Positions 3,205 through 6,489 of a DNA stretch of 32,220 nt are shown here, one piece after another (within the stretch, counting starts at the first letter, position 1; each line of letters opens with the position of its first letter). The translations under genes were made by a program, and so were the position numbers. Under the pieces are notes generated by a model. That model was not told the DNA's origin and did no database searches. It was given only the letters and a program-made list of their open reading frames with translations. Source of the stretch: Methanothermococcus sp. GTDB taxonomy: Archaea > AGJL01 > Methanococci > Methanococcales > Methanococcaceae. Location: assembly GCF_015523155.1 (NCBI RefSeq), contig NZ_WAKW01000052.1, forward strand, positions 1-32,220, written 5' to 3'.

Positions 3205-3272
3205 ATTATCACCAGGTTATTTTTATTAATTAGATATAATTAAGACCATTAAGAGCAACATAGCTCCCATCA

Positions 3273-3303
3273 GCACCACCCTGGCAAAGCCTTCGGGTAA
3301 TGC
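3273..3303 (-). promoter_or_regulatory. Archaeal SECIS element of hdrA (3' UTR)
   Basis: GCATTACCC and GGGTGGTGC pair as nine base pairs (two G-U). They are followed by a GAA/A asymmetric bulge and a GGC/GCC upper stem with a UUU loop. It lies about 110 bases downstream of the hdrA stop and upstream of vhuD, so it is assigned to hdrA. It could in principle be read in the 5' leader of vhuD, which has its own SECIS. Confidence 0.94.
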
Positions 3304-3415
3304 CTCATCTGATAAATCTTAACCACCCATTTATATTTTGCTGAGGTATTTTAATTATAAAATTTATTTTATTAATTATTATTTTATTTTATATGCCATC
3401 CCAATATTTTATTTT

Positions 3416-5401
3416 TTATTCATTAACCATTTTATGGGCTTCTAACATTCCATCTATTGCAGATATTATCTGACTATCTCTGTAATATCTCAACTGCATA
3501 GCTCCACTTGGACAAGCTCCTGCACATGCACCACAGCCTTTACATGCAATATCATCTACAACAGCTATCAAATGGTCATCATTATTATCTTTCTTCTTAT
3601 AGGATATTGCATGATATGGGCACATAGCACCACAAATTTCACATCCACCACATATATCTTCATTCACAAGAGCCCTTATCATCTCAATCTCAAACTGTCC
3701 CTTAGCCATTGGAATTGCAACGGCACTTGCTGCACCTTTTGCCTGGGCTACTGTATCTGGTATATCTTTAGGTCCCTGAGCTACACCTGCAATAGCTATA
3801 CCATCAACCTTTGTATTAACTGGAGCCAATTTTGGGTGAAGTTCCTTGTAGAATCCATCTGGTCCTACATCAAGACCCATCATTCTAGCCAAGTTTTTGG
3901 TTTCAGGTTTTGGTACAAGTCCAGCTGATAAAACAACCAGATCAGCTTCAATTTCAAGGATTTCTCCCATTAATGTGTCTTCAACCATAACTGTTAAGTT
4001 TTTGGTTTCTGGGTCTTCTACAATTTGTGCAGGTCTTCCTCTTATGAATCTAACTCCAAACTGTTCCTGAGCTCTTTGGTAATATTCTTCATATCCTTTA
4101 CCAAAGGACCTAATATCCATATAGCAGATATAAACTTCTGTATTTGGATCGTGCATTTTTATTAATTGAGCATTTTTTAATGCAAACATACAGCAAATTC
4201 TTGAACAGTATGGATTCCCTACTTTTAAATCCCTAGAACCTACGCACTGTATAAATACAATTCTGTGTGGATGTTTTCCATCGCTAGGTCTTATTTCATG
4301 ACCCCCTGTGGGTCCAGCTGGATTTAGTAGTCTTTCCAATTCCAAAGTAGTGATGACATTGTCGTAAACCCCATATCCATATTCTTCTTTCAATGAGGCA
4401 TCGAATTCGTCATAACCTGTTGCTGTAATTATTGTTCCTGCTTTTATCTTGATTTCTTGTGGTTTCTGGTTGTAGTCTATTGCATGAGGACCACATACTT
4501 TTGCACATAATCCACAGTCAATACAGTGCTCTTTATCTATTGTATATACCAGTGGAACGGCTTGAGGGAATGGCACATAAATAGCTTTTCTAGTACCTAA
4601 TCCTAAATCAAATTCATTAGGCACTTCAATAGGACAAGCTGCGGCACATGCACCACATCCAGTACATATATTTTCATCCACATATCTTGCCTTTTTTTCG
4701 ATTGTTATCTCAAAATTACCAATATATCCAGAAATTTCTTTTACCTCAGCATAAGTAATTGTTTCAATGTTAGGGTGGTTTGCTGCTGTAACCATTTTAG
4801 GTGCAAGGATTCACATAGCACAATCATCGGTAGGGAAGGTCTTGGCAAGCTGTGCCATTCTTCCTCCGATAGATTCTTCTTTATCTACTAAATAAACCTT
4901 ATAACCTTGATCTCCTAAATCAAGAGCTGCCTGTATTCCAGCAATACCTGCTCCAATAATAAGACAACTTTTATCTACTTCTACAACTTTCTGAGGAACA
5001 TCTTCTAATCTCTTAGCTCTCTCTACCCCTCCAGCAACCAATTCCATAGCTTTTTTAGTTGCCGCCTCTACATTGCCCATATGGACAAATGCGTCCTGTT
5101 CTCTAATATTTACAAACTCTAAATAATATGGGGATATGCCTGCTTCTGCGAGACAATTTCTAAATGTTGGTTCGTGAATTTTTGGAGTACATGCTGCAAC
5201 AACTACCCTATCCAAACCATATTCTTTAATGGCATCTTTAATTAACTTCTGACCTGGGTCAGAGCACATGAATGGATAGGTGGCAGCATACACTACACCA
5301 TCAAGTTTGGAAGCAAATTCTTTCACTGCTTCACAATCCACAGCACCATTAATATTAGCACCGCAGTAGCAAACAAATACCCCAACTTTGGGGTCGCTCA
5401 T
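3416..5401 (-). CDS. hdrA: HdrA, selenocysteine-containing heterodisulfide reductase subunit A
   Basis: The ORF track splits this gene in two (206 and 459 aa). An in-frame TGA at 4811-4813 joins them into one 661-residue protein: the junction DDCAM-U-ILAPKM is the conserved HdrA Cys region with Sec at residue 197. The domains are an N-terminal HdrA segment (VFVCYCGANI), an FAD/NAD Rossmann motif (GAGIAGIQAALDLG), and four 4Fe-4S motifs (CTGCGACAAACP, CIDCGLCAKVCG, CGGCEICGAMCP, CKGCGACAGACP). HdrA carries the bifurcating flavin that splits hydrogenase electrons between heterodisulfide (via HdrBC) and ferredoxin. The start is set at ATG 5401 (MSDPK) because AGGAGGTGA lies just upstream; the track's start 30 bases earlier has no such site. 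hdrB and hdrC are not in the window. Confidence 0.96.
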
Positions 5402-5560
5402 ATATTCACCTCCTGGTGTATTATTTATCAATACAATATACGTATATAATTAACTCAATATTATTATAAAAATATATACTCTTAAATTTTCTAATATTAC
5501 ATATCAATATTATTATATCTGATTAATATATAGAATAAAATGTAATCTAAATAAATTAGC

Positions 5561-5577
5561 GAAAAGTATATATATAA
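5561..5577 (+). promoter_or_regulatory. Archaeal BRE/TATA promoter for the ncRNA candidate
   Basis: GAAAAGTATATATATAA is a purine-rich BRE followed by a strong TATA box. Transcription would start about 25 bases downstream of the box, near 5597-5600, exactly where the structured element begins. Confidence 0.65.
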
Positions 5578-5597: not shown

Positions 5598-5694
5598 GCA
5601 CGGTGTGGGATAGTGGCAAAGTTATTTTACACCCCCCATATAGCTGCTGATAACACCGTGTAGGAGAAGTCTCCTAAATCCCATTCCCACCCCC
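5598..5694 (+). ncRNA. Candidate structured ncRNA or leader RNA
   Basis: This GC-rich island in AT-rich intergenic DNA has nested complementarity. CACGGTGT (5601-5608) pairs perfectly with ACACCGTG (5653-5660). GGGAT (5609-5613) pairs with ATCCC (5678-5682), crossing the first helix as in a pseudoknot. The bases between the two 3' strands form a separate 6-bp hairpin, TAGGAG-AAGT-CTCCTA (5661-5676), leaving one free base. An alternative outer stem GTGGGA/TCCCAC (5607-5612 with 5685-5690) would compete. There is no ORF and no T-loop, so it is not a tRNA. It could be a free small RNA or a distant leader of carS about 250 bases downstream. I do not recognise the family. No T-run marks the end, so the 3' boundary is a guess. 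Confidence 0.55.
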
Positions 5695-5952
5695 TCATAC
5701 CCCCAAATAAATACGGAAATGAATGGTTGAGATTTAAGACATAGATTTGATGAAATTTTAACTATTTTAAACCCCTCCCCATTCTATTTTACCCCCTATT
5801 TTAAATTTAGTTTATAAAATTTTTAGTTTATAAAATTAATTTTATATTTATTAATATTTATATATTTAAATCAATTATGTTATTTTAAGATATATTTAAA
5901 TATTATTTAAAAGAATATTTTAAAAATAATTTTTAATCAAGAGAGGGATTTT
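5695..5952. other. AT-rich intergenic stretch before carS
   Basis: I see no ORF or convincing RNA here. Several AT-only runs near 5815-5880 could hold a TATA box for carS. A TTGATGA at about 5748 resembles box C of a C/D guide RNA, but no box D partner is found. Confidence 0.4.
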
Positions 5953-6489
5953 ATGAATATAATTCAATTATTATACAATTCATTGGTATATATCTTACCT
6001 GCATATATTGCAAATGCTTCGGCATGTATATTTGGTGGAGGCACACCATTAGATGCAGGAAAACATTTTATCGACGGTAAAAGAATAATTGGAAATGGAG
6101 TGACATATAAGGGAACTTTTTTTGGATTATTATGTGGGACTATTGTAGCTGTTTTAGAAGGTATAATCATAAATTTAAATATTATGGGAACTGCTGCATT
6201 TTATTTTAACACTTTTGAATGGGCATATGTTGGTTTTTTATTATCACTTGGTGCCCTTTTTGGAGATATGTTTGGGAGTTTTATTAAAAGAAGAATAGGA
6301 CTTGCACAAGGAAGGCCCGCACCAATTCTTGACCAGCTTGGTTTTGTTGTGTTTGCCATATTATTTGCATACCTTATCGCTCCTATCTCTTTTGAAATGG
6401 TTGTTATGTTGATAATTATAACCCCGATAATTCATTTATTTGGCAACATTGTGGCATATAAATTAGGATTTAAAAAAGTGTGGTGGTAA
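5953..6489 (+). CDS. carS: CDP-archaeol synthase (CarS, DUF46)
   Basis: This 178-residue integral membrane protein has four to five hydrophobic segments. Family motifs are visible: ANASACIFGGGTPLDAG, GKRIIGNGVTYKGTFFG and SLGALFGDMFGSFIKRR. CarS transfers CTP to unsaturated archaetidic acid (digeranylgeranylglyceryl phosphate), the step that activates archaeal lipids for head-group attachment. Length and motifs fit the full family. A GAGAGGGA site precedes ATG 5953. It begins a plus-strand run with the ACT-domain gene and hom, but the 108-base AT-rich gap makes co-transcription uncertain. Confidence 0.9.
   Translation: MNIIQLLYNSLVYILPAYIANASACIFGGGTPLDAGKHFIDGKRIIGNGVTYKGTFFGLLCGTIVAVLEGIIINLNIMGTAAFYFNTFEWAYVGFLLSLGALFGDMFGSFIKRRIGLAQGRPAPILDQLGFVVFAILFAYLIAPISFEMVVMLIIITPIIHLFGNIVAYKLGFKKVWW

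Follow-up and report, generated by a model that had tools for sequence, protein, structure and literature searches.

A screen by Klein et al. in 2002 reportedly searched AT-rich hyperthermophiles for GC-rich RNAs, and the hgc RNAs (Rfam HgcC, HgcE, HgcF and HgcG) are said to belong to it. Regulatory sRNAs of archaea whose seeds are C-rich or anti-Shine-Dalgarno, of the Methanosarcina sRNA154/162 type, form a second relevant group; sRNAs that target G-rich Shine-Dalgarno regions are usually built with C-rich single strands carried on stable hairpins. The third is the methanogen SECIS element. How does the RNA considered here, encoded in a 32,220-nucleotide stretch of Methanothermococcus DNA (the window), compare with them? 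The hgc RNAs of AT-rich archaea are likewise GC-rich structured RNA genes in AT-rich genomes, some of them of unknown function, but neither the window copy nor the Methanocaldococcus copies of our RNA match the Rfam hgc families. With the Methanosarcina type it shares a predicted stand-alone promoter, stable hairpins and unpaired C-rich stretches, the likeness shown being one of layout. The SECIS element occupies the same neighbourhood, being linked to Sec-HdrA; by contrast, our RNA has no GAA/A kink-turn-like motif, is encoded on the strand opposite to hdrA and forms no part of its mRNA, and several genomes that encode Sec do without it. The features of the locus in window coordinates are these:

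3419 to 5401, minus strand: hdrA with an in-frame UGA (Sec197), the divergent neighbour
5560 to 5574, plus strand: BRE/TATA promoter element (CGAAAAG TATATATA), 31 nt before the first helix
5598 to 5790, plus strand: predicted full small RNA gene of ~190 nt, both of its ends being placed by homology (P1 begins at a fixed distance from the TATA box, and the 3' C-tract and then U-tract are kept)
5598 to 5606, plus strand: 5' strand of P1 (9 bp), with two-sided changes in 6 of 9 pairs and 98.2% of cells paired
5607 to 5610, plus strand: GGGA, 5' side of the internal loop, invariant in 23 aligned sequences
5611 to 5617, plus strand: 5' strand of P2, with two-sided changes in 3 of 7 pairs and 99.2% of cells paired
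5632 to 5637, plus strand: C-tract of the apical loop, CCCCC being invariant in 23 aligned sequences
5643 to 5649, plus strand: 3' strand of P2, covarying with 5611-5617
5650 to 5652, plus strand: AUA, 3' side of the internal loop, AUA in most sequences and AUG or AGG in two
5653 to 5661, plus strand: 3' strand of P1, covarying with 5598-5606
5661 to 5676, plus strand: P3 hairpin (5661-5666/5671-5676), whose pairing is restored through A-U/G-C exchanges in 14 Methanococcaceae
5680 to 5704, plus strand: C-rich tail CCCAUUCCCACCCCCUCAUACCCCC, with CCCAUUCCCACCCC nearly invariant in Methanococcaceae
5772 to 5790, plus strand: terminal CCCCUCCCC and then a U-tract, the probable 3' end, conserved in both families
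5953 to 6489, plus strand: carS-like gene, named by resemblance, the downstream neighbour outside the RNA

In an initial DNA search of relatives, 14 Methanococcaceae genomes each gave a single clear match, and a covariance model built from Methanococcaceae copies retrieved six more from Methanocaldococcaceae, three further copies being recognised by eye in regions upstream of hdrA. In an oriented alignment the conserved block starts with GCACGGTGT and ends with the C-rich tail, its flanks being poorly conserved except for the promoter. Across 23 aligned copies of the 5' domain, the pairs of P1 and P2 show two-sided changes at 12 of 19 positions with 96.9% of cells paired, which supplies the compensatory changes across Methanococcales that the earlier note had named as the check on its proposal; shuffles matched this covariation in 0 of 500 cases on three of five measures and in 1 of 500 on the other two, and slid controls fell far below it. 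The sequence of P1 differs almost wholly between the families (GCACGGUGU versus GGCGCUGGU or GGUGCGGGU), with pairing always kept; in most relatives, three further apical pairs of P2 covary as well, and this helix ranges from 7 to 10 bp. U-G and G-U pairs occur at alignment columns 1-80, 14-68, 17-65 and 18-64, and because these wobbles would be A-C mismatches on the opposite strand, the plus-strand RNA is the one that folds and is under selection. P3 follows P1 directly on the 3' side and is shorter or absent in Methanocaldococcaceae; its pairs were counted on individually folded stems, since MAFFT misaligned it. The C-tracts in the P2 loop and the tail are conserved and unpaired, and several recur in each molecule, their number and spacing varying widely between lineages.

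This architecture retains the outer helix of the earlier model, whose 5' strand had been placed 2 nt too high, and adds the nested P2, strongly supported here and missing there. That model instead had the GGGAU segment pair with AUCCC in a crossing, pseudoknot-forming helix, exchanging with an alternative GUGGGA/UCCCAC stem in the manner of a switch. The crossing helix, at the corrected positions 5607-5611/5678-5682, shows no covarying pair among 14 sequences, 2 of which break its fourth pair and 7 its fifth. The alternative stem (corrected 5605-5610/5685-5690) does not covary either, but 97.6% of its cells are pairable in Methanococcaceae, and because it is invariant, covariation is silent for or against it. 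GUGGG is present in 22 of 24 copies, and nearly all tails contain CCCAC or a close match, whereas two sequences in which U9 became C lose the last pair of P1 and the alternative stem together. Taken together, the pseudoknot or switch seems improbable to us, and a tertiary pairing through the conserved GUGGG/CCCAC complementarity is possible.

Where would such an RNA begin and end? The BRE/TATA element foreseen upstream of the first helix was borne out, and a TATA-like 8-mer begins at -32 to -29 from P1 in 24 of 24 genomes, the chance of such a box in shuffled upstream DNA being about 1% per genome; given this fixed distance, the transcript is expected to begin with the first base of P1 or close to it. 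GC content rises from 0.10-0.17 upstream in the window to 0.42-0.48 inside the block, in line with the GC-rich block in AT-rich DNA that the earlier note described. The earlier note closed its block at 5694, which homology confirms as lying within the RNA but not as its limit: most Methanococcaceae carry a longer form that ends with the terminal CCCCUCCCC and U-tract (about 5790 in the window), whereas three genomes (G017, G020 and G021) have a short form that has lost both and ends soon after the first C-rich tail. In Methanocaldococcaceae the RNA measures about 113-121 nt, its end being a U-tract that follows ACACCCCUCCCCCACA or a near variant of it. In M. maripaludis, U-tracts mark transcript ends, those of non-coding RNAs included (PMC7515710, PMC8716108), and 38 non-coding RNAs of this species are listed in supplementary tables of the former study (PMC7515710). 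A promoter and a terminator of its own, as befits a trans-acting sRNA, are thus present by prediction, through the TATA box at fixed distance and the U-tract end.

Could the block nevertheless be a chance hairpin or an element acting at the DNA level, with no functional RNA? Folded by itself, the window copy surpasses its shuffles by a moderate margin only (z -2.66, 2 of 200), as such a reading would have it, but in three relatives the folds of the copies lie well beyond chance (z -5.4, -4.4 and -5.4), and the strand-asymmetric wobbles, the two-sided changes across the order and the promoter at a fixed distance make it scarcely credible. Covariation in both families of Methanococcales speaks strongly for a structured RNA, and we are highly confident that a real structured RNA gene occupies window positions 5598 to about 5790 on the plus strand; comparison shows it to be stand-alone and non-coding, and it is predicted to be transcribed divergently to Sec-hdrA from its own putative promoter and to end at the U-tract. 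The earlier proposal of a structured RNA with its own promoter therefore holds in outline, with the covariation and the fixed TATA box behind it, and its pseudoknot and its link to carS fall away.

To which known class might this RNA be assigned? Rfam 15 returned no family at or above the gathering cut-off for the window copy or its relatives, only weak matches at chance level, and ARAGORN detected no tRNA or tmRNA, in agreement with the earlier view that it is not a tRNA. Methanogen SECIS elements, which lie in the UTRs of selenoprotein mRNAs and set GAA opposite A between two GC clamps, differ from an RNA that has a GGGA/AUA internal loop and runs divergent to hdrA. Archaeal H/ACA guide RNAs have a conserved ANA box directly 3' of the stem, whereas the sequence after P1 reads AGGAGA, GUGGGA, AUAAGG or UUUUUA according to lineage. 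For C/D box sRNAs, with their paired C/D and C'/D' boxes, only one conserved CUGA-like element was found by reading, and the kink-turn of L7Ae-binding RNAs, which has a 3-nt bulge and tandem G.A pairs against the NC stem, does not fit the register, a Y-G pair separating the GA from the stem. The family is thus apparently uncatalogued with respect to Rfam 15, although a transcript at this locus may have been noticed earlier. As a separate observation, an Rfam flpD match (RF01737), annotated as cis-regulatory, lies at window positions 3267-3312 on the minus strand, just after the Sec-hdrA stop; its layout, ACCC-GAA-GGC-UUU-GCC-A-GGGU, is that of the methanogen SECIS (PMC11881835). On account of this layout and position, it looks like the SECIS element of hdrA.

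With the 5'-domain model, 24 of 36 Methanococcales genomes gave a single copy each, the 261 genomes searched outside the order gave none, and widening the search to 'phylum' added no genomes. There is no such RNA near hdrA at the Methanopyri and Asgard loci. In the 23 copies with intact synteny the RNA lies upstream of a divergent hdrA, and the 24th sits at a contig end. In that genome (G022), the RNA and hdrA occupy the ends of separate contigs (L093, C44; L066, C31:1-327), and another reading frame begins in the short stretch left upstream of hdrA, owing either to an insertion or to an assembly break. Since both families have the RNA at one syntenic position, it seems to date back to the ancestor of Methanococcales, with several losses since. 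Eight genomes with Sec-HdrA have lost it (L067, L070, L071, L061-L065), most of them small, and several such genomes have other genes directly upstream of hdrA. The selenoprotein neighbour named by the earlier note is conserved, but carS is not: the downstream gene is, depending on lineage, carS, a gene for a 301-314 aa protein or one for a 277-284 aa membrane-like protein. Because it changes in this way, the RNA cannot in general act in cis on carS, and a cis riboswitch, which calls for a conserved downstream gene function, was rejected. One could still picture the RNA as a riboswitch or attenuator in the leader of whatever gene follows, carS in the window, since that gene lies on the same strand and begins some 160 bases after the point where the RNA is predicted to end, and the C-rich tail could pair with a Shine-Dalgarno sequence. 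However, with three unrelated genes downstream, a U-tract closing the block ahead of them, and hdrA as the conserved neighbour, such a cis-acting leader appears very improbable.

Does the persistent proximity to hdrA point to selenium? An in-frame UGA for selenocysteine is found in HdrA of the window genome and of 31 others, and the RNA is present in 12 of 12 genomes in which a Cys-HdrA paralogue accompanies Sec-HdrA, versus 12 of 20 with Sec-HdrA alone (Fisher p 0.014), an association to be read as a hint and not as evidence in view of the relatedness of the genomes and the draft state of some. One genome with Cys-HdrA only (G019) has neither a LysR/HrsM-type gene nor the RNA. That the RNA might follow LysR/HrsM was rejected, this gene being present in nearly all Sec genomes, as was a role as essential Sec-insertion factor; at least eight Sec-encoding genomes do without the RNA, so Sec insertion does not depend on it. 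According to the literature, it is not known how cells perceive selenium and pass the signal on through HrsM (PMC11097638). The co-occurrence with both HdrA forms hints weakly at selenium or energy metabolism. We give little credence to the specific proposal that the RNA belongs to a Methanococcales selenium response, in which it would be made together with the Sec-HdrA operon and would silence the genes for Cys isoforms or otherwise report selenium or energy status.

How, then, might the RNA act? In the mechanism that we prefer, the rigid P1/P2 and P3 hairpins would protect the molecule and keep the C-tracts of the apical loop and the tail unpaired, these tracts would pair in trans with G-rich RNA, chiefly Shine-Dalgarno regions, the pairing would lower translation of the target mRNAs, and the divergent promoter would tie expression of the RNA to the Sec-HdrA operon. 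In a 400-kb sample of start regions from one genome (G028), the strongest complement of the tail falls at the start region of a coiled-coil gene, whose orthologue in G027 has a perfect 14-nt tail complement at its start region; the complement is missing in G023, G024, G026 and G030. Upstream of this 186-aa coiled-coil gene (L242-L246), 14-18 nt are a near-perfect tail complement in G027 and G028 and partly in G029, and not in other Methanocaldococcaceae. Two further genes, one acyl-CoA-synthetase-like and the other for a small membrane protein, also have near-perfect complements at their start regions (G023, G028). Any Shine-Dalgarno sequence is complementary to C-rich tails, and tail-complementary sites in Methanocaldococcaceae show no clear enrichment (about 34 versus about 29 for a reversed control pattern); the pattern was run over the order and yielded candidates without exceeding that control. 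The start regions of the local hdrA and of the downstream gene are unexceptional as tail complements, and in the Cys-hdrA leaders no local complement stands out, the long duplexes calculated for them not being meaningful. A second well-folding intergenic element was seen in three genomes (L295 529-640 in G028, L292 around 530-620 in G024 and L314 around 1545-1640 in G027); it has a z of -2.98, no Rfam match and a 5' GUGGGGGAGGG that complements the tail of our RNA.

Base pairing is thus plausible as a mechanism, with candidate targets that do not rise above background, and its main rival is protein binding. The RNA could serve as an RNP scaffold or sponge that holds or titrates a protein recognising the C-tracts or the internal loop, as CsrB or 6S RNA do in bacteria. 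The GGGA/AUA loop, invariant or nearly so together with its flanking pairs, the several C-tracts in one molecule and the lack of enrichment of tail targets would all suit such a role; on the other hand, no candidate protein has emerged, and the number and spacing of the C-tracts differ widely among lineages, which leaves it rather unlikely in our judgement. For pairing through the C-tracts taken by itself our support is tentative, and the combined reading, a real structured sRNA gene acting in trans through C-tract pairing with G-rich RNA, strikes us as quite possible, if somewhat short of probable.

What is the significance of these findings? They add a well-supported, apparently uncatalogued RNA family to genetically tractable methanogens and offer a defined case for the action of archaeal small RNAs without known Hfq-like systems. 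The RNA adjoins the gene of a selenoprotein central to methanogenesis, and it thereby bears on the question of selenium sensing and signalling in these organisms (PMC11097638).
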